A DNA stretch of 29,077 bases from a virus. The notes under the pieces were generated by a model that was not told the DNA's origin, did no database searches, and was given only the letters and a program-made list of their open reading frames with translations. Where the stretch lies: IMG/VR virus record IMGVR_UViG_3300023180_000290, positions 1 to 29,077 of that record. One strand, written 5' to 3'. A program made the position numbers and the translations under genes. This document shows, piece by piece, positions 1,913 to 28,555 of the stretch (positions within the stretch are counted from its first letter, which is position 1; each line of letters begins with the position of its first letter).

Positions 1913-2080
1913 GTGAACTACAACGTCACCACCACGCTAGACCGCAAGTACGGGCACGCCCCACACTTCATGGAAGACCCCTACACCGAAGAGCGTCATG
2001 GGTGCCTGTACCTCGTGTCCCGGGGTGAGTTTAAAACCGCTATCCGCCTTGACGGTATCGTAGACGTAGAGGAGGCATAG
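1913..2080 (+). CDS. Small hypothetical protein (55 aa)
   Basis: The GTG at 1913 is chosen because GAAGGGAAC precedes it and because the region aligns with the leader of the next gene, which has the same promoter-to-start layout. The protein starts MNYNVTTTLDRKYGHAP and ends GIVDVEEA. No motif is recognised. An ATG at 1886 in the same frame would lie upstream of the predicted transcription start. It is followed after five bases by the next GC box. Confidence 0.5.
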   Translation: MNYNVTTTLDRKYGHAPHFMEDPYTEERHGCLYLVSRGEFKTAIRLDGIVDVEEA

Positions 2081-2085
2081 GCAGC

Positions 2086-2136
2086 GGGGCGCGGCCCTTC
2101 AGCTCGTGTTACGAAGCTTTAAGAATTACCCTGGAA
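2086..2136 (+). repeat. Dispersed element: GC box, TTACGAA-N15-CTGGAA
   Basis: GGGGCGCGGC (2086-2095), 13 bases, TTACGAA (2109-2115), 15 bases, CTGGAA (2131-2136). CTGGAA directly abuts the TGTCAGAGG box of the following promoter. The whole element fits between the stop of one small gene and the promoter of the next. Confidence 0.8.
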
Positions 2137-2158
2137 TGTCAGAGGGGTGTGGTATGGT
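2137..2158 (+). promoter_or_regulatory. TGTCAGA-type promoter with extended -10
   Basis: TGTCAGAGG, GGTG, TGG, TATGGT (2153-2158). Spacing is identical to 1863-1884. The predicted start near 2165 leaves a short leader with GAGAGGAC ahead of the ATG at 2187. Confidence 0.45.
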
Positions 2159-2186
2159 TTGGCTACCAACAACGAGAGGACACCTC

Positions 2187-2318
2187 ATGGCCCGATGCGA
2201 AGACTACCCCTGCTGCGGTCACACCGATGGCCTTGGCTGCAACTACGTCCCTGACATGGACTACTACTATGCCCGTGCTGCTCGCATGGACTATGACGAC
2301 TACTATGACGAGCCGTGA
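2187..2318 (+). CDS. Small Cys/Tyr/Asp-rich protein (43 aa)
   Basis: A 43-residue protein beginning MARCEDYPCCGHTDGLGC, with four Cys and one His in the first 18 residues, followed by a Tyr/Asp-rich tail (DYYYARAARMDYDDYYDEP). The Cys/His cluster suggests a metal-binding knuckle. CxDYPCCGH-type short proteins occur in many actinobacteriophages, but their role is unknown. GAGAGGAC supports the start; longer in-frame readings would overlap the upstream promoter. Confidence 0.65.
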   Translation: MARCEDYPCCGHTDGLGCNYVPDMDYYYARAARMDYDDYYDEP

Positions 2319-2321
2319 GGG

Positions 2322-2372
2322 GCCGCGCCCCCGTTACCACCTTGTTACGAACCTTTAAGAATTACCCTGGAA
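2322..2372 (+). repeat. Dispersed element: GC box, TTACGAA-N15-CTGGAA
   Basis: GCCGCGCCCC (2322-2331; the box is inverted relative to 1809), 13 bases, TTACGAA (2345-2351), 15 bases, CTGGAA (2367-2372). The stretch from TTACGAA to CTGGAA is almost identical to the copy at 2109-2136. Unlike the others, no clear gene follows: 2373-2517 contains only ORFs under 20 codons and an inverted pair TAGCACT/AGTGCTA (2444-2450, 2474-2480). Confidence 0.75.
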
Positions 2373-2496
2373 TATTCCAAGAAAAAATGAGCAGTTTGTT
2401 CTCATGCTCAGGAGATGTGGTAGCAGTTTATCTTGTCAAGACGTAGCACTCTGATTCGATTCTGCTTTTACCTAGTGCTAGACCACGCAAAACCCC

Positions 2497-2508
2497 TATT
2501 TATTTATT
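2497..2508. repeat. TATTTATTTATT at a convergent gene junction
   Basis: The tetranucleotide repeat TATTTATTTATT lies ten bases from the end of the minus-strand gene at 2518. A similar TTTATTTATTTATTTTAT lies at the other plus/minus convergent junction (12236-12253). The shared position suggests a role in transcription termination, but no stem accompanies it. This is inference from position only. Confidence 0.35.
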
Positions 2509-2517
2509 GTGAGAGTG

Positions 2518-2655
2518 TTAGACGGTTGTAAACCTTTCCATACCGTCCACATCAAGCCGAAGGACGTAGCCGAACGGCTTTTCGATAATCTCCTGCACAA
2601 CTCCCGTCACGCCAGACTTGGCGGTGGTGTAGGTGTCTCCAACTGTGATCTGCAT
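2518..2655 (-). CDS. Small beta-rich hypothetical protein (45 aa)
   Basis: The start at 2655 (MQITVGDTYTTAKSG) follows AAAGGTAACATT and a good promoter at 2684-2712. The sequence VGDTYTT..SGVTGVVQEI resembles the opening strands of small SH3/KOW-like barrels that recur in phage proteins, but it is too short to be sure. It ends near the convergent junction. Confidence 0.6.
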   Translation of the reverse strand: MQITVGDTYTTAKSGVTGVVQEIIEKPFGYVLRLDVDGMERFTTV

Positions 2656-2683
2656 AATGTTACCTTTCGTTGTTGTTATTAGA

Positions 2684-2712
2684 ACCTTATCATGGTGGGG
2701 GCACAGAGTCAA
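2684..2712 (-). promoter_or_regulatory. Sigma-70-like promoter
   Basis: On the minus strand TTGACT (2712-2707), a 17-base spacer ending in TGA, and TAAGGT (2689-2684), an extended -10. The predicted start is near 2677, giving a leader of about 22 bases with AAAGG before the ATG at 2655. Confidence 0.6.
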
Positions 2713-2740
2713 GTCATATACCCCCACCGTTATCAAACTG

Positions 2741-3256
2741 TTACCAGGAAGAAGAGTAATAAAATGAAGTAAAGTTACCGTCGTGCGTATCTTGGGGGTA
2801 CAGGGTGAGAATATTGTTGATCATATAAACTGTCTTTTTGATATCTGCCATGTACCAATCATCATAGTCATAGGAGCCAAAGAAGAAACCCTGCGTGGGT
2901 GCTAGACCTTCCCTCTCTGCCACATCTTCCAAAACATGACCCACAGGAAGCATGAGCACGCTATTACATGCGGCACGCAACGCAATCAGTTTCTCACGGG
3001 ACACAAAGTATTGCCCACAATCATCTACGCCATTTTGCACATTCTCAACGAACCAACCATGAATGGCATTAGCCTTACGCCAATACCCTACGGGAAAGAC
3101 TAACTGAATACCCGCAAAGTCTGAGTAGTCATCAAAGCCCTCGGGGGCGTACTTGGCAATCGCGGCATATCTGTCTGTCACGACAGGCTCATGATCTGGG
3201 GTGTAAGAATACTTACTTACATATTGGCGTGCTTCTAAATACTGATCTAGTCCCAT
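2741..3256 (-). CDS. Conserved phage protein of the MGLDxYL family (171 aa)
   Basis: Starts MGLDQYLEARQYVSK after GGAGAGATGGAATA; an upstream in-frame ATG lacks a ribosome-binding site and overlaps the previous gene. The protein has the recognisable pattern GYWRKANAIHGWFV...GVDDCGQYFVS...L..AC..VL that recurs in many phage hypothetical proteins. The conserved Trp, His, Asp and Cys residues suggest a folded enzyme or binding domain, but no activity is established to my knowledge. The C-terminus is Tyr/Ser-rich (FYYSSSW). Confidence 0.8.
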   Translation of the reverse strand: MGLDQYLEARQYVSKYSYTPDHEPVVTDRYAAIAKYAPEGFDDYSDFAGIQLVFPVGYWRKANAIHGWFVENVQNGVDDCGQYFVSREKLIALRAACNSVLMLPVGHVLEDVAEREGLAPTQGFFFGSYDYDDWYMADIKKTVYMINNILTLYPQDTHDGNFTSFYYSSSW

Positions 3257-6205: not shown

Positions 6206-6278
6206 GGCCCTGTAGAGCAGCGGAGTGCTCGCCACCCTGTCACGGTGGAGGCCGTGGGTTCAAATCCCATCAGGGTCG
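6206..6278 (+). tRNA. tRNA-Asp(GTC)
   Basis: A complete cloverleaf: acceptor GGCCCTG pairs with CAGGGTC (one G-T), D arm, anticodon stem CCACC/GGTGG with loop CTGTCAC giving anticodon GTC, and T arm GTGGG-TTCAAAT-CCCAT. The discriminator base is G and no CCA is encoded. Flanked by two copies of a GGGCA/TGCCC hairpin. Confidence 0.93.
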
Positions 6279-6328
6279 CGGTTAGTGGAAGGAGGCATCT
6301 AGGCAGATGCGATCACCAAAACCACAGT

Positions 6329-9424: not shown

Positions 9425-9498
9425 TGGGAGGTAGCTCAGACGGTTAGAGCACCAGTCTTATAAGCTGGCGGTCGTGGGTTCAAGTCCCACCCTCCCAA
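9425..9498 (+). tRNA. tRNA-Ile(TAT)
   Basis: A complete cloverleaf: acceptor TGGGAGG pairs with CCTCCCA, T at position 8, D arm AGCTCAGACGGTTAGAGC, anticodon stem CCAGT/GCTGG (one T-G) with loop CTTATAA giving anticodon TAT, T arm GTGGG-TTCAAGT-CCCAC, discriminator A, no encoded CCA. It reads ATA, a rare codon in high-GC actinobacteria but frequent in the nearby gene at 11549-12076. Confidence 0.93.
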
Positions 9499-9503
9499 CG
9501 GCA

Positions 9504-14812: not shown

Positions 14813-14925
14813 AGATTCATTTCTACTTCTTCAAAACAGTCTTTGCAAATGTCAATTGTAGAGGTGTGTTTTGCGAACATTTGATCACACTGCAAACACA
14901 TATCAAAGTACGGAAACTTGCTCAT
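14785..14925 (-). CDS. Zinc-ribbon-like protein (46 aa)
   Basis: The start at 14925 (MSKFPYFDMCLQCDQMF) follows GGAGGATGTTCTGC. The 46 residues carry CLQC and CKDC knuckles separated by 15 residues. A longer reading of the frame upstream overlaps the glycosylase-like gene and is rejected. It overlaps that gene by 23 bases. Function unknown. Confidence 0.6.
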   Translation of the reverse strand: MSKFPYFDMCLQCDQMFAKHTSTIDICKDCFEEVEMNLWGIGVPTE

Positions 14926-15409
14926 GCAGAACATCCTCCATTTCAAGATTATAGTATAGCGTATGTGTGGGCCAAAAGTAGTTGCAGTCTTTACAACAGG
15001 TAATGCGATTGGCATTACGAAACTCTGCATAAAACTCTGGATCTTTGACATACAGGTTGTTGCGATGTGATTCGTGAACTCTTTCATCACCCCACCATGG
15101 AGGCATTATGACGTTGCTCCCACGATCCCAATTCCAATCATGCATTTCAGAGATGGCATTCCAGTTTTTCTCAGTTGAGATACCACGCTCATCACAAGCA
15201 TTCTTGACTGCAACAAGGTACTCATAAAGTGCATTGTCATGATTGCGCCACATCTTTACTGCTGGATGATTGACCCAACCACCAGTGGTTCTGTTGCTGC
15301 TGATAATAGAATAAACTTGACGGCCCTCTAGCAATTGTTTGTTAAGTCTTTTAGTATCTAGAATAGTTGCAGACTCTGCAAGGTCGGGCCAGGGCACAAA
15401 TGTTTGCAT
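14903..15409 (-). CDS. Pyrimidine-dimer DNA glycosylase-like protein (168 aa)
   Basis: The N-terminal 100 residues follow the Pyr_excise-type family (PF03013): MQTFVPWPDLAESATILDTK, RLNKQLLEGRQVYS, then GGWVNHPAVKMWRNHDNALY and LVAVKNACDERG. In this family the residues after RLxKQ and NHPAVxMW are the hallmarks. The protein would excise UV-induced dimers or related lesions from phage or host DNA. The C-terminus has CCKDCNYFWPTH, a possible zinc knuckle not typical of the family. Confidence is from motif recognition. Confidence 0.8.
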   Translation of the reverse strand: MQTFVPWPDLAESATILDTKRLNKQLLEGRQVYSIISSNRTTGGWVNHPAVKMWRNHDNALYEYLVAVKNACDERGISTEKNWNAISEMHDWNWDRGSNVIMPPWWGDERVHESHRNNLYVKDPEFYAEFRNANRITCCKDCNYFWPTHTLYYNLEMEDVLHEQVSVL

Positions 15410-15410
15410 A

Positions 15411-15593
15411 TTAATCCATTTCTATAAGGTCCAACGGTGTTGGAGCAGTTAGCTTAGTATGACAGTAAGCGCACTCACAGTCAAGTAGATAAGAGGTAAT
15501 TTCGTATGCCTCATCAAACTGTACTTGCACAGTAAAAAGGCTAGAGCCACAATTTATACATTCCCTGGTTGGAATACCCCTGCAATCAAGCAT
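15411..15593 (-). CDS. Zinc-ribbon protein (60 aa)
   Basis: A 60-residue protein with CINC (residues 12-15) and CECAYC near residues 39-44, separated by about 25 residues, consistent with a zinc ribbon. AAGGAGAATAA before the ATG. Its stop lies one base before the glycosylase-like ATG. Possibly DNA or RNA binding. Confidence 0.65.
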   Translation of the reverse strand: MLDCRGIPTRECINCGSSLFTVQVQFDEAYEITSYLLDCECAYCHTKLTAPTPLDLIEMD

Positions 15594-15614
15594 TTATTCT
15601 CCTTAGATATGACT

Positions 15615-15648
15615 TATCCACGCCCCAATAATACAGGAAGCGTGGATA
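15615..15648. terminator. Inverted repeat between two minus-strand genes
   Basis: TATCCACG (15615-15622) and CGTGGATA (15641-15648) are perfect inverted repeats around an 18-base loop, in the gap after the 57-residue gene and before the zinc-ribbon gene. It could be a transcription attenuator or terminator, or a protein site (the left arm reads TTATCCACG, one mismatch from a DnaA box). Confidence 0.4.
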
Positions 15649-15659
15649 GCTGTCAAGGA

Positions 15660-15833
15660 CTAGAGTCCATTGCGAGAAAAGATTGCATCAATCTCCTGGA
15701 CATGGTGAGGGCCAAATCTTGCTGCGGCCTCTCTCTGCTTTGTCCATTCGCGGTTCATTGCACGGATAGCCTTTTCTTCTTCGCTTGTGGCGTTTGTGAA
15801 AAGATTCTCAATCTTACGCATGAGTGTTTTCAT
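15660..15833 (-). CDS. Small helical protein (57 aa)
   Basis: A 57-residue charged, helical protein: MKTLMRKIENLFTNATSEEE at the start, FGPHHVQEIDAIFSRNGL at the end. It has a strong AAAGGAGGAATTTAC site and the TCGACA/TATAAT promoter at 15870-15898. First gene of the minus block that runs to 12245. Function unknown. Confidence 0.65.
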   Translation of the reverse strand: MKTLMRKIENLFTNATSEEEKAIRAMNREWTKQREAAARFGPHHVQEIDAIFSRNGL

Positions 15834-15869
15834 GTAAATTCCTCCTTTTGGGATTGTTGGGATATCTCA

Positions 15870-15898
15870 ATTATATCAGGACTTTGTATTGTTGTCGA
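15870..15898 (-). promoter_or_regulatory. Strong promoter of the 15833-12245 minus block
   Basis: On the minus strand TCGACA (15898-15893), a 17-base spacer ending in TGA, TATAAT (15875-15870), an extended consensus -10. The predicted start is near 15863, with AGGAGGA before the ATG at 15833. It is divergent from the endolysin promoter 40 bases to the right. Confidence 0.65.
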
Positions 15899-15937
15899 AC
15901 AAATGTGTCGTGATAGTCATCACAAAGAGTTGTGGTG

Positions 15938-15943
15938 TATAAT
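15938..15943 (+). promoter_or_regulatory. Leaderless -10 of the endolysin gene
   Basis: A perfect TATAAT followed after six bases by the ATG at 15950. No convincing -35 hexamer is visible. The geometry implies that the endolysin transcript starts at its ATG. Confidence 0.55.
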
Positions 15944-15949
15944 ATTCGT

Positions 15950-16477
15950 ATGGCAAAATCACTAAATGGCTGGCCCGTTATTAAAAAGTGGGCAGACCCA
16001 AGACTAAGAGCAATAAAAATTCCAGGAACAAAAAGAACAGTTAGGTTGCGACGGGGAGCTGCCCCTGTTTTTGCTGCCTTTCTCGCAGATTGGAATGCTG
16101 AAATGCCAGAAAGACTTAAATTAAACGAGGGTCCAGTAGACGGTTGGACCTTTAGGAAGTCTCGCTTTGTAAACAAGTATTCTAATCATGCGTCTGGAAC
16201 AGCAGTAGATCTTAGGTACGACGTTCTTAAACCAGACGGCAAGCCACATATGAATCAAAGAGAAAAGAAAATTCTAAACAAAATCCTTGATCGTTATAAG
16301 ACAAAAGATGGTCACAGAATTTTTGCAAATGGTGAATGGTGGAGAAAGCCAGACGGTATGCACACAGAGCTTTCTCAGTCATGGGATCGTGGTGCTAAAA
16401 GAAATACTACCTTTAAAGATGTTAAGGAAGTACAAAGGCTACTTGGCATTAAAAAGAATGGCAAGAGAACTAAATAA
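15950..16477 (+). CDS. Endolysin, peptidase M15 family (175 aa)
   Basis: Contains the M15 (D-Ala-D-Ala carboxypeptidase / L-alanoyl-D-glutamate peptidase) metal motif SNHASGTAVD, with His80 and Asp87, and the downstream GMHTE with His138 as third zinc ligand and Glu140 nearby. The C-terminal VKEVQRLLGIKKNGK resembles a truncated peptidoglycan-binding repeat. There is no signal peptide, so a holin or other export route is expected; none is obvious here. The start is the ATG at 15950, leaderless from the TATAAT at 15938; the upstream GTG reading would start before the transcript. It overlaps the convergent glycosyltransferase gene by eight bases. Confidence 0.85.
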   Translation: MAKSLNGWPVIKKWADPRLRAIKIPGTKRTVRLRRGAAPVFAAFLADWNAEMPERLKLNEGPVDGWTFRKSRFVNKYSNHASGTAVDLRYDVLKPDGKPHMNQREKKILNKILDRYKTKDGHRIFANGEWWRKPDGMHTELSQSWDRGAKRNTTFKDVKEVQRLLGIKKNGKRTK

Positions 16478-17261
16478 TTCTATTAGGTATTTTTCTTTTC
16501 TCTACCCCTACCAACTGTCCCTTGTGATCTGACTTTATATCTTTTCTTACCCAGGTCATTCCATAGGTATTAAATAGATTACCTTCAGCATCACGTTCTG
16601 GCAATCTTTCTGCCAATGATTGGAAGGTTGGATCATCACTAAGATTTAAGTATGCATTATGATACCAGGGCAGATCATAATAGGCTGGAGAATTAACCAA
16701 CAACATACCAGCAGTTGTCCAATGTTCTTGTATCTTAGGATTATTAGATATTTCTTTGCCTTGTAATCCATAAGCAGGAACATCTACACCAACAAGTGGT
16801 CTATCAATTTCAAACATCTTTTCTATAATCTCTGCAGTTAATGTAGTATCGGAATCAACGTATAATACAGCATCATAATTTACAACTTCATCTTGTGAAG
16901 TCTGCTCTCCCCAATGATGCCCCGACATTGCTCTTCTTCTTTGTGCAAACTCTCTAACTAGATTACGACCAGTTTCAATTCTTATCCATCTATTTGATGA
17001 TGTAACCTCTTGTTCGTAATCATTTATTGTGTAGGTCCAATACTTTCCGTGTACCTCGTTTAGTGCATCAATAACCTTGGCAAAAGGATCTAGACCACGA
17101 TGATCTAATTCTAATGCTGCAAAAAAGGTAGCATTATTAAACCTATTCATAATGTCAATTCTATTTTGCAACCATGTCATATCTTCATTACGATCACACT
17201 TCCAGCCAACCAGCGGTGTTCCAATAACAAAGTGCTTGCTGTAATCAACTTCTTTAAACAT
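16470..17261 (-). CDS. Glycosyltransferase, GT-A type (263 aa)
   Basis: Starts MFKEVDYSKHFVIGTPLVGW; the first third alternates strands and helices as in GT-A folds. The DxD-like metal-binding site is LYVDSDTTLT near residues 153-162, followed by ILIV-type strands and VGVDVPAYGLQG. It resembles phage and viral GT2-like enzymes that transfer a sugar from a nucleotide donor. It is the last gene of the glycan cassette and overlaps its upstream neighbour by eight bases. The acceptor could be host wall polymer, phage DNA or virion protein; the sequence does not decide. Confidence 0.75.
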   Translation of the reverse strand: MFKEVDYSKHFVIGTPLVGWKCDRNEDMTWLQNRIDIMNRFNNATFFAALELDHRGLDPFAKVIDALNEVHGKYWTYTINDYEQEVTSSNRWIRIETGRNLVREFAQRRRAMSGHHWGEQTSQDEVVNYDAVLYVDSDTTLTAEIIEKMFEIDRPLVGVDVPAYGLQGKEISNNPKIQEHWTTAGMLLVNSPAYYDLPWYHNAYLNLSDDPTFQSLAERLPERDAEGNLFNTYGMTWVRKDIKSDHKGQLVGVEKRKIPNRII

Positions 17262-17691
17262 AATTCCTCACATAATCTGAACATATACCTGCAACGCCTG
17301 AAAAGCTAGTAACATTATCCCACTCTGGCATTACACTTATAAAGTCTTGACCCACTATATCAGATCCTGGATACCCCCAGACATACCCAGAACTGGTTAG
17401 TGTGTATTCGTCTGACACATGAAAAAAGCAATGCATTTCAAGATGTAGGCAAGTCTCAAGAGCCTTTCCATTTTTACAATGAACCCACAAATAATTTTCT
17501 CTATCTAGCAAATAGTCTTTAGTAATCAAATAATCAGGGCTATCATGCCCAAGATATAATTTATTTTTTTGTACCCAAAGATCTACTTCAACATCAAATC
17601 CTGATTCTATTGCAGCATCGACATACTCTGGAGAGTTTTCTAAATCTAAATTTGGTCCATCAATATTTCCGCGATGTGCAATAAGAATCAT
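17254..17691 (-). CDS. Glycerophosphodiester phosphodiesterase-like protein (145 aa)
   Basis: Starts MILIAHRGNIDGPNLDLENS with the HRG...N/EN...A...GFDVEVDLW and YLGHDSPDY features of the GDPD family: His6, Arg7, Glu35 and Asp37 match the usual metal and catalytic positions, and LGHD holds a further His. At 145 residues it is shorter than typical GDPDs (about 240), so the barrel looks truncated. Similar short GDPD-like proteins occur in polysaccharide gene clusters. Overlaps the neighbours by eight and four bases. Confidence 0.75.
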   Translation of the reverse strand: MILIAHRGNIDGPNLDLENSPEYVDAAIESGFDVEVDLWVQKNKLYLGHDSPDYLITKDYLLDRENYLWVHCKNGKALETCLHLEMHCFFHVSDEYTLTSSGYVWGYPGSDIVGQDFISVMPEWDNVTSFSGVAGICSDYVRNYV

Positions 17692-18284
17692 TTATGCCTC
17701 TTAAAATGAACATCTGCTTCCTTGCCAACATTGTCTGGAACTATTTTGCAGGTAAAACCACGTTCACAAAGCCAATCACATATGTCATTAACATTGTTGC
17801 TTGTATTTTGATAGAGATCAACCGTATAAGATCCCTCGCACTTTCCTTCTTGGACAATATCTATTTTATCTCCAAGACTTTTGAGAACTCTAAAGTCGTT
17901 GCCTTGTGCATCTATCCATATATAATCTATAGAATCAATTTCATTATCAATAATAAAATTATCTAATCTAACCTTGTTTACAATACAGGTTTCAGTAACA
18001 TGAAAGTCTGGCCTATCTAACCATTTTTCATGAATATCATCTGTAAAATCATATAAAGATGAGCATCCCCAATCTCTTGTGCCTGCTATATTAAACTTAG
18101 CTTCGCCCTCTTCTTCATCAACTGCGGCATCAACAATATGTACATTAGTATTATTTTTAAACTTATCTTTTAGGTGATCAACCAGTTGTGGTGTAGGCTC
18201 AAATGCATAAACCGTTGTGTTTTTGGTTGCAAGTCTTTCTGTATCTGTGCCCCAATTTGCTCCTACTTCTATAACCGTTCTCAT
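17688..18284 (-). CDS. FkbM-family methyltransferase (198 aa)
   Basis: The SAM-binding motif VIEVGANWGTDT (residues 4-15), AFEPTP, IDAAV-type segment and the FkbM signature YIWIDAQGNDFRVLKSLG (about residues 121-138) are clear. The enzyme would O-methylate a sugar or other hydroxyl. Four-base ATGA overlaps with both neighbours indicate coupled translation in the glycan cassette. Substrate unknown; a sugar built by the adjacent transferases is the natural guess. Confidence 0.85.
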   Translation of the reverse strand: MRTVIEVGANWGTDTERLATKNTTVYAFEPTPQLVDHLKDKFKNNTNVHIVDAAVDEEEGEAKFNIAGTRDWGCSSLYDFTDDIHEKWLDRPDFHVTETCIVNKVRLDNFIIDNEIDSIDYIWIDAQGNDFRVLKSLGDKIDIVQEGKCEGSYTVDLYQNTSNNVNDICDWLCERGFTCKIVPDNVGKEADVHFKRHK

Positions 18285-19642
18285 TTATAATTCTCCAGGT
18301 AGTAATTTAAATCTTCGGGCGTTCCCATGCCCCACATTTTATCAATGTTTTTAATCCTTATTCTTTTATTATCAAGCACCGCTTCATTGAAAACGGGGCA
18401 TACATAAAACTCGTTATTAGTTCTAATATTCTTGTCAATCATTTGCTCTGCGTACTTTACATAGTCAGATCCGTGCTTCCAATAGTAAACTCCAACGGTA
18501 GCAATATCTGAAATAGGATTCTTTTCTGCCACCTCAATAACAAATCCATCATCTCCTAGCTTTGCATAAGACCACTTAGGATGAGTAGACTTAAATGTCA
18601 TTATTCCACCGTCAACTTCCGATGCTGTAAAAGCATACATAGCCTCATTAGCATCCCATTCCATAACCTGATCAGAGTTAGCAATCATGAGAGGTTTGTC
18701 ATCATTAATAAGTTCTTTTGCAAGAAGTGTTGTACATGCTGCACCTTCTGTTACACCCTCAACCTGAATGATATCGCAACCTGGGGCTATAAGATTAAGA
18801 ACCTGTTTTAGATTGTATTTCTCATAGTGTTCTTTCTGCACCAAGAAAATATAATGTGCATCTATGTTAAGATTTTCTACAACAACCTGAATCATTGGCT
18901 TACCATGAGCCTCAATCAAGGGCTTGGGGAATGTGTACCCTGCCTGTGCGAATCTTGAGCCTGCACCAGCCATTGGAATAAGGACATTCATTTCTTTATT
19001 AATCCATGGTATGGTCATGTGACCGTCTACCTCATCTATCATAGCCATAAACCTTTCATATTTAAGATCGTGAGAATCTTTTACTGGATATAGTGTAGCA
19101 CCAGATGACTTCGCTGCCTCTCTTCCAACATGCGAATCCTCAACTATAATTGTATCTCTGGGATATGCATCAAGTGCCACCATGCATTTCCAATACATTT
19201 CTGGAAAAGGCTTAGGATATTTTACATCTTCATTGCTAACAACATAATCGACCATATGTAAAACTCCGATAGCATTAAGAGCCGTTCTTACTGTATCTCT
19301 AATGCTATTGCTTGCTACCGCTACTTTGTATCCTCGTATTTTTAATTCTGAAATAATAGCGATTGCAGTTTTGTTATATGGAAAGTCTTCTACAAGTCTG
19401 AGCGTTTCTCTTTGCTTTTCTTGCCAGATAGTTTCATGAGTAGTCTCTGGTAAACCCTTATGATCTGTTAGCATTTGTAACTTTTTGTTTGTGCTTAGAC
19501 CGTCGTATTTAGAATGATGCTCTTCTGTAGATATACAATATTTTTTATCTATCATAGCAAGAGCGTTATTCAGAGCATCAAAATGAAGTTCCCTGGAATC
19601 TAAAAGAACACCATCTAAGTCAAATATAACTAGCTTATTCAT
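18281..19642 (-). CDS. Fused HAD phosphatase - sugar nucleotidyltransferase (453 aa)
   Basis: Residues 1-210 form a HAD hydrolase: FDLDGVLLDS (nucleophile Asp8 and Asp10), VASNS (motif II), KPFPEMY (motif III Lys), and IIVEDSHVG (motif IV). Residues about 220-453 form a nucleotidyltransferase: LIPMAGAGSRFAQAGYTFPK, then PLIEAHGKPM, IANSDQVMEW and the G-x-Y-Y segment of NTP-transferases that make NDP-sugars. One chain could dephosphorylate and activate a sugar phosphate. Its place in the cassette supports donor-sugar synthesis. Which sugar is unknown. Confidence 0.85.
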   Translation of the reverse strand: MNKLVIFDLDGVLLDSRELHFDALNNALAMIDKKYCISTEEHHSKYDGLSTNKKLQMLTDHKGLPETTHETIWQEKQRETLRLVEDFPYNKTAIAIISELKIRGYKVAVASNSIRDTVRTALNAIGVLHMVDYVVSNEDVKYPKPFPEMYWKCMVALDAYPRDTIIVEDSHVGREAAKSSGATLYPVKDSHDLKYERFMAMIDEVDGHMTIPWINKEMNVLIPMAGAGSRFAQAGYTFPKPLIEAHGKPMIQVVVENLNIDAHYIFLVQKEHYEKYNLKQVLNLIAPGCDIIQVEGVTEGAACTTLLAKELINDDKPLMIANSDQVMEWDANEAMYAFTASEVDGGIMTFKSTHPKWSYAKLGDDGFVIEVAEKNPISDIATVGVYYWKHGSDYVKYAEQMIDKNIRTNNEFYVCPVFNEAVLDNKRIRIKNIDKMWGMGTPEDLNYYLENYK

Positions 19643-20286
19643 CTTTGTGGCCCCGCATGTCTATGCCATTTATTATGTCTAACAATAGCTTTGCCGTTAC
19701 ACTTCATTTCATACTTATTACGAACCCGCATTGACCATTCAACATCTTCTTCTTCATTCCAAACCCGTGACTCGTCTAATGGTTCTTCTAACATCACATG
19801 ACGCTTAACAATAAAAAATCCTCCAGAAATATACATATACTGTGTCTGTGACCAGTCATCGTATTTTAATGACCATGCTCTGCCATAACCAGGCTTATCC
19901 CACAAAGACCAGTCCATAGGATTACGAGATCCAGTAATTAAGTATTGTGGACAAGAACAAATATCCCAATCTGTTCCAAAGGATTTAAAAGATTCGTACC
20001 AATTTGGATCAAAGATATGATAATCATGCATCAAAACGATATTGTCGTACTTGGCATTTTGAACAAGAATATTCTTTTTACGAGTAATCCACTTGGGCTT
20101 TACCTCTTCATCAAAATCTATTTTACGAATGTTGTCGCCTTCAATTCCCTGGCTGTCTCCACCACCAACAAAAAGAATTTCATATTCTGGAATATTGAGA
20201 TTACGAATAGACTGAATTATTTCTTGAAGACGGTTTTTGTCTTCATATACTGTGATAATGCCAAAGGTAAAGGGTATGTCAGTCAT
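19639..20286 (-). CDS. Glycosyltransferase, GT2-like (215 aa)
   Basis: Starts MTDIPFTFGIITVYEDKNRL; FGIITVYED and LFVGGGDSQGI are GT2-like strand motifs, VLMHDYHIF takes the place of a DxD, and GGFFIVKRHVM plus NEEEDVEWSMRV match the acceptor side. First gene of the glycan cassette. It overlaps the following HAD-nucleotidyltransferase by four bases and the upstream acidic gene by eight. DxH instead of DxD suggests an altered metal site. Confidence 0.75.
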   Translation of the reverse strand: MTDIPFTFGIITVYEDKNRLQEIIQSIRNLNIPEYEILFVGGGDSQGIEGDNIRKIDFDEEVKPKWITRKKNILVQNAKYDNIVLMHDYHIFDPNWYESFKSFGTDWDICSCPQYLITGSRNPMDWSLWDKPGYGRAWSLKYDDWSQTQYMYISGGFFIVKRHVMLEEPLDESRVWNEEEDVEWSMRVRNKYEMKCNGKAIVRHNKWHRHAGPQR

Positions 20287-20569
20287 CGTCTTCCGAATCT
20301 AATTCATATATGTCTATCATTTCATCAAGAGATAGGTATTCTTCTAGTGGATCAAGATCTAGTAGATCACATAGGTTATGCCATGTTTCTTCAATTACTC
20401 TTGTGCCCTCTTCTGTAAGATCAGCTAATTTGTATACTACTGACTGCGCTAATGGCAACCCTAAGTCATTATAAATTACAAGGTCAGAGAAGAATTCTCT
20501 ATCTAGTTCTCCAACTGTAAAGTCTCTAGAAAACTCTTCCAATATCATGCACTTAAGTTCAAGATCCAT
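20279..20569 (-). CDS. Acidic hypothetical protein (96 aa)
   Basis: A 96-residue, strongly acidic helical protein (MDLELKCMILEEFSRDFTVG; end IYELDSEDDD). No motif. It starts within the 3' end of the upstream gene and ends inside the glycosyltransferase start, so it belongs to the same operon. The charge pattern could suit a DNA mimic or chaperone, without direct evidence. Confidence 0.6.
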   Translation of the reverse strand: MDLELKCMILEEFSRDFTVGELDREFFSDLVIYNDLGLPLAQSVVYKLADLTEEGTRVIEETWHNLCDLLDLDPLEEYLSLDEMIDIYELDSEDDD

Positions 20570-20912
20570 TTTTTATCTCCCTGTCTATTCTACCAAGTAA
20601 TTCAGAGAATATTACCACAAATTCTTCTTTTGTGAGGAATCCATCTAATGGGTCCCCGACTGGCCCTACTTCATAAAAGTCTTTATTTGCTACTGGATCT
20701 TCTTTAGATAAAGATAGGGAGGCGGTTCCCCATCTATACCTAAAATAAAAATTGTAATCTTTGTATTTACCTTCCGCTTGTACAGGACAAGCACCGCCTG
20801 CGGAAAAAAATGAAACGCCAGGAACAGAAACATCGTCTACTCCCCAAGAAATAAATTCTCTAAGAGAAAAGATATTAATAAGGTCTTTTATTGCTTCCTC
20901 GCGTTCAGACAT
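20559..20912 (-). CDS. Hypothetical protein (117 aa)
   Basis: A 117-residue protein: helix (MSEREEAIKDLINIFSLREF), beta-rich middle (GKYKDYNFYFRYRWGTASLS), helix near the C-terminus (EEFVVIFSELLGRIDREI). The helix-beta-helix layout resembles small immunity-like or SUKH-like folds, but there is no specific match. The ATG overlaps the SSB stop (TAAAATG). Confidence 0.6.
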   Translation of the reverse strand: MSEREEAIKDLINIFSLREFISWGVDDVSVPGVSFFSAGGACPVQAEGKYKDYNFYFRYRWGTASLSLSKEDPVANKDFYEVGPVGDPLDGFLTKEEFVVIFSELLGRIDREIKNGS

Positions 20913-20913
20913 T

Positions 20914-21282
20914 TTACCAAGGGTTGTCTAGGTCTGGCTCTACTTTTGTAGAATTGCTGCCATTAAACATAATTGATGCACCAATATCAGATGCTTCAAT
21001 CTCGTAGGCATAGCCCTTAGAGCCGTCATTACGCTCAAAAGAGCGTCCCTTGAGCTTTCCATGGACAATTACCTTCTGACCCTTCTTAAGAGACTCAGAT
21101 CCCTCTGCAAGCCTACGCCAGCAGGCAACGTCAATGTAGGTGGTGTCTCCGTCCTTCCATTGACCACTACCATCCTTGATGCGTTCATTACTAGCAATAC
21201 GCAACTTAGATAGCTTGTGTCCAGCAACTGTCTTAAGTTCTGGATCAGCAACCAAATTTCCAACTACCGTAATCATACTCAT
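20914..21282 (-). CDS. ssb: Single-stranded DNA-binding protein (122 aa)
   Basis: A complete OB-fold SSB: MSMITVVGNLVADPELKTVA, FRIA-type strand (LSKLRIASNERI), WKDGDTTYIDVACWRRLAEG, LKKGQKVIVHGKLKGRSFER and the Y-AYEIEASDIGASI strand. The last residues DLDNPW replace the usual DDDIPF tip, which recruits replication proteins, so partner choice may be altered. The protein would coat phage single-stranded DNA during replication and recombination. AAAGGAATAAC precedes the start; it overlaps the upstream gene by four bases. Confidence 0.9.
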   Translation of the reverse strand: MSMITVVGNLVADPELKTVAGHKLSKLRIASNERIKDGSGQWKDGDTTYIDVACWRRLAEGSESLKKGQKVIVHGKLKGRSFERNDGSKGYAYEIEASDIGASIMFNGSNSTKVEPDLDNPW

Positions 21283-21572
21283 GTTATTCCTTTTCCTCGT
21301 ACTTTCTTATTAGTGGGCAGGTTGTTACCCGTATCAATGACAGGATCAAGTGTGACCCTGACACCAAACCTTTCTATTATAGACTTAATCTTGTCTAAAT
21401 GCAAGATGCAATCAAGTCTTTCTTTTTCATTGTAGTACTCCCATTGGCTTTCATAGAATCTAATGCCAATGAATTGGTGACCACCCATATCATATTCAAC
21501 AATGTCTATTACAAACTCATGCGGTGGCTTTATTGACTTTACCGCAGACTTCATTTGTGGGGTATATATCAT
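21279..21572 (-). CDS. Hypothetical protein (97 aa)
   Basis: The start at 21572 (MIYTPQMKSAVKSIKPPHEF) follows GGAGGTAGA and overlaps the WhiB stop. Beta-rich: FVIDIVEYDMGGHQFIGIRF, then a helix with CILHLDKIKSIIERFG. It lies between whiB and ssb. No motif is recognised. Confidence 0.65.
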   Translation of the reverse strand: MIYTPQMKSAVKSIKPPHEFVIDIVEYDMGGHQFIGIRFYESQWEYYNEKERLDCILHLDKIKSIIERFGVRVTLDPVIDTGNNLPTNKKVRGKGIT

Positions 21573-21853
21573 TCTACCTCCATTGTTAGGAATTTCCAAA
21601 TATCAAACCATTCTTCTTGTTTTTTGTGATTATTAAATTCTTTTGATATTTTTCCTTTTTCAAAGTACACCCCGCCCCAAACACCCCACTCTTGCCTGCT
21701 TACGCCAGAAGCTAGACACTCCCTTTGGACGGGGCAAGATTTACATAAGGAGTCTATACCATTACGAAACTCAATATCCTCTTCATATCTATCAAAGAAG
21801 TAGTTTGTGTTCATGTCTAGGCATCTAGCCCTATTTTGCCATTGCTTACTCAT
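21569..21853 (-). CDS. WhiB-family transcription factor (94 aa)
   Basis: Contains the four-cysteine iron-sulfur ligand set of WhiB proteins: Cys11, then CKSCPVQREC giving Cys37, Cys40 and Cys46, followed by the GVWGG turn (residues 57-61) that contacts sigma factor. A basic tail is weak (KISKEFNNHKKQ). The start at 21853 overlaps the upstream stop (ATGA). WhiB proteins occur only in Actinobacteria and their phages, which supports the host assignment. Phage copies are known to interfere with host whiB2 and promote exclusion in mycobacteriophage TM4. Confidence 0.88.
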   Translation of the reverse strand: MSKQWQNRARCLDMNTNYFFDRYEEDIEFRNGIDSLCKSCPVQRECLASGVSRQEWGVWGGVYFEKGKISKEFNNHKKQEEWFDIWKFLTMEVE

Positions 21854-22065
21854 GATACCATCGAATCTGGAATGTTCCATCCATCAGGTTCACAAGCAAA
21901 AATAAGTCTTTTATACCATTTTTGAGTTGTTTGATCAAAAACCCCTATATGTAAAAACTCTGCATAATCGTCTTGAACAAGACACTGTATGTCCCATCCA
22001 TCCCAGGATAGGTGGGAACTTTCTTCTACTATTCTTTCTGCTTCACTTAGGCTCGTTACTATCAT
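21850..22065 (-). CDS. Hypothetical protein (71 aa)
   Basis: A 71-residue protein starting MIVTSLSEAERIVEESSHLS, with a WDGWDIQCLV strand and WYKRLIFACEPDGWNIPDS. Helix followed by a beta sheet; no known motif. GGAAAGATG precedes the ATG. Its stop overlaps the whiB start. Confidence 0.6.
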   Translation of the reverse strand: MIVTSLSEAERIVEESSHLSWDGWDIQCLVQDDYAEFLHIGVFDQTTQKWYKRLIFACEPDGWNIPDSMVS

Positions 22066-23746: not shown

Positions 23747-24121
23747 TTATTCGTTGTCAATTGTTTTTTGAAAAGAAAATGGTGAGTCTGTCCAAATGTG
23801 CTTCTTTGCTTCTCTTTGTACGATCTTTCTTGACCATGAAAAGCCAGCGTCACCGCCCCATGCGTCCCACATAATTCTTCCGTTTGAAGGGTTAGATGTG
23901 TTATAGAAGTCCTTACCCTTCTTGTCAACTTCGTGCCTTGAAAAAAATGAATACATGCGCTTTACAACAGACAAAGACATTGATCTTCCTGCCACAATAT
24001 CGGATGCTCTGCCCCAACCAACGGGAGTTCCAGCACCCTTTGCCTTGCCCTCTTCTTTCCATCTAAGGGCACGCTTAGCAGCAGTCACCATGCCAGCAGT
24101 TGGCTTATATGTTTCTGCCAT
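23747..24121 (-). CDS. Phage structural-accessory domain protein (124 aa)
   Basis: Shows a pattern I know from actinophage capsid-protease and portal neighbours: KPTAGMVTAAKRALRWKEEG, GRASDIVAGRSMSLSVVKRM, FSRHEVDKKGKDF and NPSNGRIMWDAWGGDAGFSW. This module is often fused to or located beside prohead proteases and is of unknown function. It is coupled to the upstream 409-residue gene (TAATGG overlap). A role in head assembly is inferred from that association. Confidence 0.7.
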   Translation of the reverse strand: MAETYKPTAGMVTAAKRALRWKEEGKAKGAGTPVGWGRASDIVAGRSMSLSVVKRMYSFFSRHEVDKKGKDFYNTSNPSNGRIMWDAWGGDAGFSWSRKIVQREAKKHIWTDSPFSFQKTIDNE

Positions 24122-25350
24122 TATTTATCTCCTTGCAAAAATGTAAAGTCTACTTTTTCTCTTCCAGTCCTATTGGCCTTATTAGCAGTTTTTGGCATAT
24201 TTGAGAAGATTGCAGATAGGTCTGCTGGTACTTCGCCCTGAATTGAACTATCATAGTCAATAGCGGCATCTACAGACTTTTCTTTCTTCTTGTCGTGCAT
24301 TGCCTTCTCTTCGTCTTCTTCGTCTTCATACATTGCCTTTTCCTTCTTCTTGCCGTTATAGCTCTTCTCCTCTTCTTCCTCGTCCATGTTGTGGGCCTTT
24401 GCCTCTTCCTTCATGTCGTGGTGAGCCTTCTCTAAAGACTTGAGAATTTCCTTTGCGTTTTCTAGATCTTCATTCATAGCTTTTCCTACCCTCCTCAATG
24501 TGCTCATTTTGTGACCAACAATTGTATCCGTTGGTTCTCCATCTCTGTAAACTCTAATGGCTACAGCGGGATCTTCTGAGGTTCCTGTGATTGTAAAATC
24601 AGAACCAGGGACGTTATATTTACCATTACGAATAATTCTCGTAACCTTTCCTGTCGCTCTTCCTCCGCTAGAATTCCAAGACACCATCTGCCCTACACGA
24701 ACATTTTCTGCCTTACCAATTCTTTCCATCATATCATCAACAAATTCTTGTTGCTCGTCTCTGTTCATAGTTGGTTGCTCCATTCCTGTATTTACTAACC
24801 CGTCTGGGATTGCCGCCAATCTACACTTAGCGTTTTCTTGTACCAAGTAGGATAGCAGCGAGCAACCCAACTTGTCATCATCCGTGTGATAATGAAAGAC
24901 ACAGTTTATACACTTTACACCAATAGCGGCATCTTCATTTTCTTGTGGTGGCTCATAGCCTACCCAAATTCCAGATCCTTGCTTATCAAAGGGTCCGTAT
25001 TCTTCTGCGATACCCGATAATGCATCTGCATATGCTTTTTCTTGCCTAGACAGCATGTCGTACAGTTGCTGTTGATGTTTTGTTATTTTTTGAGTGTCAA
25101 TAAACTGTCTCTTCTTTTTCTTCTTTTCATCTTCATATCCAGAACCAATAGACTGTGGATAAAGATTAGGGGTAGTTTCGCTTGTTACAACGTCCTTCTC
25201 CGCTGATTCCGATTCAGAGGCGTACAAGGCACGCAATTGCGCTCTAGCCGATTCTCTCGTTGTATGGCATCCAGAAACAGAGTTATCTGGTAGTTTAACA
25301 ACAGCGTAGCCACTACAGCCACCGTAATTGCGTCTAATTTCCCATGGCAT
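24121..25350 (-). CDS. Large acidic multi-domain protein with HVA1/tudor-like domain (409 aa)
   Basis: Residues 1-45 form the MPWEIRR...YAVVKLPDNS...GCHTTRESARAQLRALYAS domain often seen at ends of actinophage capsid-maturation proteases. Residues about 145-180 hold CINCVFHYH...GCSLL...AKCRLAAIPD, a four-Cys/His metal-like cluster. Residues about 220-295 resemble the HVA1/tudor (DUF2945) domain: VGQMVSWNSSGGRATGKVTR, then VAIRVYRDGEPTDTIVGHKM. Residues about 300-370 are Lys/Glu-rich. No catalytic Ser/His pair of a protease is visible, so it may be a scaffold or decoration protein. The ATG is six bases after TATAAT. Confidence 0.7.
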   Translation of the reverse strand: MPWEIRRNYGGCSGYAVVKLPDNSVSGCHTTRESARAQLRALYASESESAEKDVVTSETTPNLYPQSIGSGYEDEKKKKKRQFIDTQKITKHQQQLYDMLSRQEKAYADALSGIAEEYGPFDKQGSGIWVGYEPPQENEDAAIGVKCINCVFHYHTDDDKLGCSLLSYLVQENAKCRLAAIPDGLVNTGMEQPTMNRDEQQEFVDDMMERIGKAENVRVGQMVSWNSSGGRATGKVTRIIRNGKYNVPGSDFTITGTSEDPAVAIRVYRDGEPTDTIVGHKMSTLRRVGKAMNEDLENAKEILKSLEKAHHDMKEEAKAHNMDEEEEEKSYNGKKKEKAMYEDEEDEEKAMHDKKKEKSVDAAIDYDSSIQGEVPADLSAIFSNMPKTANKANRTGREKVDFTFLQGDK

Positions 25351-25737: not shown

Positions 25738-26766
25738 TTAACCCTTATTAGTATGTGGATGTGATTCGGTAATTGATGCCTGAGAGACAATCCTGTATTC
25801 TGAACTATAGAAAAGCGTTGAAAGTTCCTCTACTCCAGAATACGAGCAACCGCTGCCAAGACCTCCACGAATATCAGAAAGTAGGTTTCTTATTGGTCCA
25901 GTCCCTTGAACAAAAGTAGAAATGCCCTCTGCCACAGAAACCTTTCCATTAGCGTCCTTTTGTGCAGATGCTGATGCCATTCCTCTTACAACCTTCCAAG
26001 GCTGCCCATTCCTGGTTGTCCACTTTCCTGGTGCCTCTTTTGATCCCGCAATCATAGATCCAACCATTACTGCATCTGCTCCTGCGGCAAAGCATTTAAC
26101 CATGTCTCCGCTATTACGAATGCCACCATCAGCGATTATGGAGCAGTCTGTAAAGTTTCTTTCGGAAACATCCAATATTGATTGCAAAGTTGGCACGCCA
26201 TGACCACTAACAATCCTAGTTGTACAAAGACCACCACCGCCGATTCCAACCCTAATTGAGTCAGCACCAGCTTCAGCGAGTCTAATAAATCCTTCGGATG
26301 TGGCAACATTTCCAGCCATAATATGTACATCACTAAAGGACAGCCGTAATTGATCCACTGCCCGTACTGCATAGTCACCGTGACCATTTGCTGTATCGAC
26401 CAAAAACATTCTTACGCCAATATCGTAAAGTCTCTTTGCCTGTGCAAGATATCCATTGTTAGATGCAATGGCAACACCAAAATTAATTTTATTAGATATC
26501 AGATCTTTACACTTAGTTATTTGATCATCGTGAGACATATATCTATGAAGAATTCCAATTGCACCCTCTTCATGCAAAGCAATACACATTTCAGTATCAC
26601 ATACAGTGTCCATGGGGGCAGCGATTAGTGGAAGTTTTAAATCTATTTTTCTTTTTCCATGTCCTATGCTCATAGACAAATCTACATCGTGCCTTGAAGA
26701 TATCGAACTTCTTTGTGGAACAAGAAGAATGTCATCAAAACAAAGAGCCTTGCCGTTATATTTCAT
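25738..26766 (-). CDS. IMP dehydrogenase-type enzyme without CBS domains (342 aa)
   Basis: An IMPDH/GMP reductase TIM barrel: FDDILLVP (residues 10-17), APMDTV, VDTANGHG (NAD-site region), AGADSIRVGIGGGGLCTTR with catalytic Cys181, ADGGIRNSGDMVKCFAAGAD, VMVGSM and KVVRGMAS. VRGMAS matches IMP dehydrogenase better than GMP reductase. The length (342) shows that the usual CBS pair is absent. It would oxidise IMP to XMP for GTP supply. It sits directly after the large terminase in the same leftward operon, an unusual place for a purine enzyme. Confidence 0.85.
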   Translation of the reverse strand: MKYNGKALCFDDILLVPQRSSISSRHDVDLSMSIGHGKRKIDLKLPLIAAPMDTVCDTEMCIALHEEGAIGILHRYMSHDDQITKCKDLISNKINFGVAIASNNGYLAQAKRLYDIGVRMFLVDTANGHGDYAVRAVDQLRLSFSDVHIMAGNVATSEGFIRLAEAGADSIRVGIGGGGLCTTRIVSGHGVPTLQSILDVSERNFTDCSIIADGGIRNSGDMVKCFAAGADAVMVGSMIAGSKEAPGKWTTRNGQPWKVVRGMASASAQKDANGKVSVAEGISTFVQGTGPIRNLLSDIRGGLGSGCSYSGVEELSTLFYSSEYRIVSQASITESHPHTNKG

Positions 26767-26773
26767 TTTTCTC

Positions 26774-28555
26774 CTATATCAGTTTGTAATTAGAAAGATA
26801 GTCTTTTATGTCTGGTGTCATCTGAGGCTTTTCTTTTTCTTCTATCAACTCTCTGTTTCTATCTGCCTTAAATGATGACCAAGTATGTACCTCTATCTCT
26901 CCAAAGGTATCTTTCTTGGAATGAGATATAGCATTATAAACTGAACCACACATAGCATCTGCTAGATCCTTAGATTTTTTTCTAGGGTGATCAACTTTAT
27001 TATTAGAAACAATTCTAAGTTCTAAAAGCTCTTCTAAAAGTATTTCAATATGTGGGGCAACTACACGTTCTTCATAAAAAAGCATGGCTAAGTCTTCATA
27101 GTGTTTCTTAGCAACAGAAAGAGTCTCTGTGTTAATCCCTACACTCTTTAGATCCCGCTGAATATCAAATGATTGCCAGCGGTCGAATGTCACTAGGCCA
27201 AGATTAAATCCGTTTCTTCTCAGATCAATAATCCAGTTTTTTACTTCAGAGAGGTCTACTGGGCCTTCTCTGTGAGGCTCCCACCATGCAATCATATCTA
27301 CAACAACAAATGGAACTACTTGAGTATAATCATTAAATGTTTGTACCTCTACCCATTTCTCAACGTGACTTAATGCTACCGCACACTTGTCGTGCTTCTG
27401 TGCTAAATCTGCATGAACAAAGTATGATGTATCTGGGTCTGGTTTGAAACTAGGATCTATCCTTCTAAAATTATCAAGCGGGTTACGAATACTTAGTGAC
27501 TTTTCTATCTTGTCCCGCGATTTAAAAAATGCATCTGAAGATACACTAGGCATACAGGCAAAGCGCATCATTGCGTCTGCTGGATCTGTATAAAATGCAA
27601 GCTTAAAGTCTTCAATACTTCTTGTTGGGTTTACTTCCCATGTAGGTCTTTTGAGTGCATAAACTCCAGGGAACTTATAGGACTCTATCCTATCTTCTTC
27701 CCACTCAATATCAAAGGTATTTCCCGGATCATCTTCTGGTAAAGCAGGATTAAGAACAAAAGTATGTTTTTTAAATTCAGTTTCTTTATCAGCAACAACG
27801 TCGTCGTATCTTTTAGAAATAAAGTCTCCCTTGTAGCGTGGGAATGAAAGAAGAACTACTTTTCCATAGTCTGGGAAACGTGAATCTACTGAACCACGGA
27901 AAGCTTTATAAATAGCCTCGCCCGTCTTTGCATTTTCATTACCACTACTTGATTCTTGGGCAAAACCAGAAATCTCATCAAGGACGGCAAGCATAAGGTT
28001 TAGACCCTCATGGCTCTCTCTTTCTGAGTGACCAGAATAAACAGTAACAGCCTTATCAAACTCAACATTGTCTACTTTAGCATCATACTTTCCAGCAAAC
28101 CATGGAGATTTATCAATCTTGTTTTTGAATCCTTTAAAGAAAACATTCTTTGCTTGCTGTGCGTTTACAGCAATATTAATAATATCAATGGCATCACCAG
28201 GAGGTTTACCAAAATATGCAGCGGGATCTTTTAGGCAAAGAAGCTTATAAACAAGATAAGCACAGCCCACAGTAGAAGTGTGATCCTTACCTGATCCTTT
28301 GCCAAGTTGCAATATAACTTCTGACTTAGTATATTTCTTGTAGTGCTCACTACCCTCTTCCTTCCCCATAAATCTTTGCAGATCTTTTTCTTTGTATATC
28401 TGACTCATGCACTCTACAAGAACATACTGATAGTGAGACAACTCTGGCTGTCCTAAAAAGTCTGACGACTTTACAAAAGTTTCTACATCTACTGGCTCTT
28501 CCTGAAATGGATTGTCATCAAGAGCCTCCATAAAGTCAGAGAAATCAATTGTCAA
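26774..28555 (-). CDS. terL: Terminase large subunit (593 aa)
   Basis: The packaging ATPase-nuclease. Walker A is QLGKGSGKDH (Lys90 in GKGSGKD), Walker B LMLAVLDEIS with Asp193 and Glu194, and the coupling-type motif LLSFPRYKGD follows. The C-terminal RNase H-like nuclease has VHADLAQ, FDRWQSFD and KDLADAM acidic positions. The likely start is TTG at 28555 with GGAG upstream and an 11-base overlap with the upstream gene; an ATG at 28531 is an alternative. It cuts concatemers and drives DNA into the prohead. No portal or capsid gene follows within the next 5 kb. Confidence 0.9.
   Translation of the reverse strand: MTIDFSDFMEALDDNPFQEEPVDVETFVKSSDFLGQPELSHYQYVLVECMSQIYKEKDLQRFMGKEEGSEHYKKYTKSEVILQLGKGSGKDHTSTVGCAYLVYKLLCLKDPAAYFGKPPGDAIDIINIAVNAQQAKNVFFKGFKNKIDKSPWFAGKYDAKVDNVEFDKAVTVYSGHSERESHEGLNLMLAVLDEISGFAQESSSGNENAKTGEAIYKAFRGSVDSRFPDYGKVVLLSFPRYKGDFISKRYDDVVADKETEFKKHTFVLNPALPEDDPGNTFDIEWEEDRIESYKFPGVYALKRPTWEVNPTRSIEDFKLAFYTDPADAMMRFACMPSVSSDAFFKSRDKIEKSLSIRNPLDNFRRIDPSFKPDPDTSYFVHADLAQKHDKCAVALSHVEKWVEVQTFNDYTQVVPFVVVDMIAWWEPHREGPVDLSEVKNWIIDLRRNGFNLGLVTFDRWQSFDIQRDLKSVGINTETLSVAKKHYEDLAMLFYEERVVAPHIEILLEELLELRIVSNNKVDHPRKKSKDLADAMCGSVYNAISHSKKDTFGEIEVHTWSSFKADRNRELIEEKEKPQMTPDIKDYLSNYKLI

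Follow-up and report, generated by a model that had tools for sequence, protein, structure and literature searches.

In serotype conversion by the phage gtrABC genes, phage-encoded glycosyltransferases alter a surface glycan. According to PMC12619734, which cites Freeman et al. 2023, the capsid and tail-tube proteins of mycobacteriophages carry glycans that shield the virion. The locus described here is a five-gene cassette on the minus strand (16470-20286) of IMG/VR record IMGVR_UViG_3300023180_000290, which was analysed whole (29,077 bases; hereafter the window). It resembles gtrABC in that its glycosyltransferases are proposed to change a surface glycan, but gtrABC has the membrane flippase GtrA and the membrane-bound GtrB, whereas the cassette has neither a flippase nor a membrane-bound transferase. 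With the mycobacteriophage case the locus shares an actinobacterial phage as its bearer, but GT1 and GT2, the two glycosyltransferases of the cassette, have no relative in any annotated phage record. A first-pass annotation of the sequence had read the locus as a set that makes and transfers a sugar. Gene families, catalytic residues, an order kept in 88 distinct cassettes, a GDPD-GT2 fusion and relatives in polysaccharide clusters bear this out, and the cassette is very probably a phage-encoded glycan pathway. Phage glycosyltransferases, FkbM enzymes and sugar-activating genes are already known, and the core of the cassette is common to cyanophage glycan clusters. The literature searched, which mostly did not include subscription journals, yielded no account of the five-gene architecture, its spread in aquatic actinophages, the fusion of mini-GDPD to a transferase or the gene-precise exchange of methyltransferases.

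In order of transcription, the cassette begins with GT1, a soluble GT-A (GT2-family-like) glycosyltransferase of 215 amino acids (19639-20286), followed by HAD-NTP, a 453-residue fusion of a beta-phosphoglucomutase/phosphatase-like HAD domain to a sugar nucleotidyltransferase (18281-19642). The third position, an exchangeable one termed slot 3, is occupied by an FkbM-family S-adenosylmethionine (SAM) methyltransferase of 198 amino acids (17688-18284). A minimal GDPD-fold phosphodiesterase-like protein of 145 amino acids, here mini-GDPD (17254-17691), and GT2, a GT-A-fold glycosyltransferase of 263 amino acids outside any Pfam family (16470-17261), complete the set. The first-pass annotation had placed the same five genes here, and their coordinates proved exact; Pfam confirms the named contents of HAD-NTP and FkbM, predicted folds support those of the GDPD-like protein and GT2, and the GT1 match stays below threshold. 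Successive genes overlap by 4, 4, 4 and 8 bases. The endolysin gene, an M15-type peptidase on the plus strand (15932-16477; phrog_1512 endolysin, 2.6e-13; PF13539 sub-threshold), is a neighbour outside the pathway; as had been reported, it is convergent with the cassette and directly beside it, overlapping GT2 by 8 bases. All five cassette genes are under purifying selection in the pairs compared (ratio of nonsynonymous to synonymous substitution rates, dN/dS, 0.02-0.29), and none of the five proteins has a membrane segment (no 19-residue hydrophobic stretch above a Kyte-Doolittle value of 1.2).

The overlaps make the translational coupling claimed in that annotation plausible. As evidence for a cassette they were dropped, because most genes further upstream in this operon likewise overlap or lie a few bases apart; the whole operon is equally tight, and short overlaps are nothing special to these five genes. 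Cassette status follows from conserved gene order. Viral contigs were collected from IMG/VR by a HAD-NTP search (the best 80 of 504 relatives) and a GT2 search (the best 80 of 211), and the resulting counts are lower bounds skewed to close relatives. GT1, HAD-NTP, GDPD and GT2 occur together in at least 114 loci, at least 88 of them distinct in sequence, and in all of them they stand in one order. The homolog search for gene order that had been suggested as a check thus returned the full arrangement GT1-HAD-NTP-methyltransferase-GDPD-GT2 in at least 88 distinct viral cassettes. In 20 of the 88, GDPD and GT2 form one open reading frame, and GT1 of L141 carries a fused GT8 domain; these fusions argue for a shared function. 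A separate observation concerns the region before GT1: L138 encodes a full FtsZ homologue (2009-2944, plus strand; Tubulin and FtsZ_C domains, 311 amino acids) directly upstream of GT1 and overlapping it. FtsZ relatives occur in 37 viral loci including this one, and the window has none.

Slot 3 is filled by a methyltransferase in every one of the 88 complete cassettes, which supports the sugar methylation proposed at first pass, although the enzyme is of two unrelated kinds. Eight cassettes carry FkbM and 80 carry MTX, a class-I methyltransferase of the Methyltransf_11/25 type; none carries both. The idea that FkbM and MTX are diverged copies of a single gene was rejected, since BLASTP found no similarity between them. 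A direct exchange is visible in L004, a sister whose identity to the window is 96.8% over 18287-21190 and 91.3% over 14933-17696, with MTX in place of window positions 17697-18286 (FkbM). One breakpoint falls at the final codons of HAD-NTP, the other where the GDPD gene begins, at its first bases. In L005, the synonymous divergence (dS) of FkbM is 0.19, against 0.57-0.92 for the four neighbouring genes. The L004 swap and the L005 contrast together indicate that slot 3 recombines independently, and the methyltransferase is an exchangeable module with gene-precise exchange. A third state of the slot is found in G007, a sister phage whose terminase is 98% identical to that of the window and whose DNA is 80% identical across 8.2 kb ending at window position 20914. 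There, one inverted FkbM gene stands in place of GT1, HAD-NTP, slot 3 and GDPD, and GT2 is retained. G007 also encodes an APH-type kinase, a methyltransferase-like protein and a cytochrome P450 (PF00067, 6e-53) between its endolysin and pyrimidine-dimer glycosylase genes (L114:7131-9994), a possible small tailoring cluster that the window lacks.

The enzyme assignments differ in depth. HAD-NTP matches the Pfam families HAD_2 (2.6e-29) and NTP_transferase (1.4e-12). Its signatures are intact in both halves, with residues invariant in 22 sequences that include cyanophages: D8, D10, S111, K144, E168 and D169 in the HAD half, and G226-x-G-S-R230 (G-A-G-S-R), K240 (PK), D324 (SDQ) and E373-K374 (EK) in the nucleotidyltransferase half. 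The nearest named relatives of the HAD half are beta-phosphoglucomutases (beta-PGM) and related phosphatases; there is a beta-PGM-like NCBIfam match, and among NCBIfam models the general HAD subfamily alone passes. Named equivalogs (beta-PGM, RmlA, GlmU-like and others) were tried and fell far under their curated cut-offs, so no substrate was assigned. The FkbM product matches PF05050 (Methyltransf_21) at 4.8e-18, with 66.3 bits against a cut-off of 22.7, and TIGR01444 as well. GT1 scores 20.4 bits against Glycos_transf_2 (PF00535; E 5.4e-4), under the gathering cut-off of 23.3, and its HDY, SGG and DVEWS motifs are invariant in 13 relatives.

The GDPD-like protein and GT2 gave no significant family in the Pfam search and were assigned by structure prediction. 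The mini-GDPD model, built from 30 sequences, has a mean pLDDT of 95. Its best match in VIA-align is the GDPD 1o1z (Z 11.1; root-mean-square deviation 3.0 A over 138 aligned residues); nearly all of the top of the list consists of GDPDs, with unrelated barrels from Z ~7, and Foldseek returned weak matches, none below 1e-3. The residues of the catalytic His pair (HRG, HD) and of the E-x-D metal site (H6, R7, E35-x-D37 and H49) are invariant in 35 sequences, and in the alignment an invariant H71 seems to stand where the usual Glu of the 'EiK' strand sits. Model and motifs together identify the protein as a GDPD reduced to about 60% of the length usual among solved structures. For GT2, a sequence search against solved structures gave nothing meaningful. 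The model chosen has a moderate pLDDT of 74, and four others range from 48 to 56; its top structural matches are GT-A glycosyltransferases (Z 12-15), and its DxD motif (D136-S-D138) is invariant.

Beyond close viral relatives, nucleotide similarity to annotated phages is limited to the cyanophage HAD-NTP gene. At the protein level, HAD-NTP is 60-62% identical to proteins of the T4-like cyanophages S-PRM1, B23 and DSL-LC03, and mini-GDPD is 36-47% identical to proteins of S-PRM1, B23, DSL-LC03, S-SM2 and Bellamy. GT1, GT2, FkbM and MTX have no relative among 50,697 annotated phage records. As in the cassette, the cyanophage glycan clusters hold HAD-NTP and mini-GDPD adjacent or a few genes apart, among glycosyltransferases. 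They differ in being far larger, with epimerases, phosphoheptose isomerase and other enzymes, in having cyanobacterial hosts, and in containing no counterpart of this cassette's GT1, FkbM, MTX or GT2.

The same pair recurs in bacteria: of the 13 bacterial genes most similar to HAD-NTP, 11 are accompanied by a GDPD gene, adjacent or close by (Pelagibacter, Prochlorococcus, Marinimicrobia, Balneolaceae and others; some of these contigs are short, single-cell or metagenome-bin sequences and could be viral). GT1 relatives are also found near bacterial HAD-NTP genes. In Pseudomonas, separate NTP, GDPD (~204 amino acids), HAD and NTP genes have a GT1-like protein nearby and adjoin what reads as an ATP-binding cassette (ABC) polysaccharide exporter; no GT2 homologue was found at this locus. 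Two Legionella loci (L165:7132-9419 and L166:2716-5060) carry a LicD phosphotransferase gene directly upstream of HAD-NTP and overlapping its start, a hint that activation may yield a cytidine diphosphate (CDP) compound. The bacterial pairs in Pelagibacter, Marinimicrobia, Pseudomonas and Balneolaceae thus bring the same enzymes together in polysaccharide loci, and their substrate is not described in the literature searched. Since the two genes are linked in both cyanophages and bacteria, the GDPD/HAD-NTP pair is the deep core of what resembles a surface-glycan pathway.

From gene content, predicted folds, catalytic residues, order, fusions, selection and gene-precise exchange, we infer the following chemical steps. 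A phosphorylated sugar or polyol would be trimmed or isomerised by the HAD half, and the product would then become a nucleoside diphosphate (NDP) derivative through activation by the nucleotidyltransferase half. A route from sugar-6-phosphate through sugar-1-phosphate to NDP-sugar within one protein is attractive in view of the beta-phosphoglucomutases and phosphatases nearest to the HAD half; a bisphosphatase would be equally possible. In the least certain step, mini-GDPD might free a phosphorylated precursor from a phosphodiester, or form or break such a bond within the glycan. GT1 and GT2, both soluble, would then add sugars in succession, and the slot-3 methyltransferase would cap the glycan. 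Because GT1 and GT2 have no membrane segment, transfer is probably cytoplasmic, onto protein, a lipid-linked precursor or DNA.

Among these acceptors, a virion protein appears the likelier, with the host envelope a close second. The leaning toward the virion reflects three considerations: the cassette is not accompanied by genes for export or flipping, a terminal methyl swap would suit a virus escaping recognition, and mycobacteriophages offer a precedent for glycans on capsid and tail proteins (PMC12619734). The whole statement, that the cassette performs cytoplasmic glycan decoration whose final chemistry is varied by methyltransferase swap, with a virion surface protein as the likeliest acceptor, is given a probability of roughly 50%. 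Several points weigh against it. The sequence names neither substrate nor product, GT1 scores under the Pfam threshold, and mean pLDDT reached only 48-56 in four of the five GT2 models. The window has no head or tail gene bordering the cassette, and no gene for the acceptor was recognised. The bacterial and cyanophage relatives lie in clusters resembling those for cell-surface polysaccharide, which would fit an envelope target equally well, and the pairing of HAD-NTP with LicD in Legionella leaves room for a CDP-alcohol as the product in place of an NDP-sugar.

Those same relatives, together with the LicD partner, speak for the strongest rival, in which the infecting phage uses the cassette to alter a wall or membrane glycan of the actinobacterial envelope, so as to mask receptors or exclude superinfection, and leaves the virion alone. 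The numerous structures that match the GT2 fold include TarS and TarP, soluble GT-A enzymes whose substrate is wall teichoic acid, but GT-A fold matches are non-specific. Cell-wall modification has also been proposed as one role of glycosyltransferases in freshwater actinophages (PMC10202952). The cassette, however, brings no flippase, membrane-bound transferase or polymerase, and the envelope reading is a real possibility at clearly less than even odds. It is quite unlikely that the cassette glycosylates a modified base of phage DNA as protection against restriction: phage glycosyltransferases are known to act on DNA, a role also proposed for isolated freshwater actinophages (PMC10202952), but a host sugar donor would make HAD-NTP and GDPD superfluous, and no gene of the thymidylate-synthase family (hydroxymethylase-like) is present in the window and nine relatives, which include records of 101 and 172 kb and may be fragments. 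The lack of such an enzyme in these ten records makes DNA the least likely target. Most improbable is an auxiliary metabolic role of GDPD and HAD in scavenging phosphate or lipid, with chance alone placing them beside glycosyltransferases: GDPDs usually release glycerol-3-phosphate, aquatic phages often carry phosphate genes and S-SM2 has pstS and phoA ~6 kb downstream of its GDPD gene, but the gene fusions speak against it (HAD to a nucleotidyltransferase, and GDPD to GT2 in 20 distinct cassettes), as do the order kept in 88 and the persistence of the GDPD-nucleotidyltransferase linkage in bacteria.

The virus is assigned to the actinophages, with an actinobacterial host, on two genes of the window, which is probably a phage fragment. 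One encodes a WhiB-like regulator (21569-21880, minus strand; PF02467, 6.2e-13), a marker of actinobacterial hosts and an accepted marker of actinophages (PMC10202952, PMC6802176). The other encodes the large terminase (26774-28555, minus strand), which in tblastn is 55-58% identical to those of Streptomyces phages, including Gilson and StarPlatinum, among the best matches listed. The cassette is also present in an unrelated large phage: in L074, which belongs to a 172-kb record, GT1 and HAD-NTP are 82% and 70% identical to those of the window, and the window terminase has no match there, which indicates that the cassette moves as a unit.

Beyond cytoplasmic decoration of a virion protein, a broader and more doubtful proposal may be put forward tentatively: a widespread, horizontally moving 'coat-switch' cassette, with a constant activation and transfer core and a plug-in slot for unrelated methyltransferases exchanged gene-precisely, could generate serotype-like variation of an undescribed virion glycan, perhaps phosphodiester-linked or CDP-activated, in aquatic actinophages. 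If so, viruses of aquatic actinobacteria would vary the finish of their surface glycan by a single methyltransferase swap, analogous to serotype switching, and the five genes would define a route to an unknown sugar. The proposal would also give a first function to the GDPD/HAD-NTP pair, present in SAR11 bacteria and cyanophages too, and a handle on what it is that recognises the coats of phages in lakes.

Other genes of the window complete the picture of the record. A pyrimidine dimer DNA glycosylase, an ultraviolet-repair enzyme (14903-15409, minus strand; PF03013, 2.9e-16), adjoins the endolysin, and an IMP dehydrogenase/GMP reductase (25738-26766, minus strand; PF00478, 8e-92) lies just downstream of the terminase. 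A 409-residue protein with a Hva1_TUDOR domain (24121-25350, minus strand; PF11160, 1e-7) is otherwise without a family. On the plus strand, tRNA genes for Asp(gtc) and Ile(tat) are located at 6206-6279 and 9425-9499.

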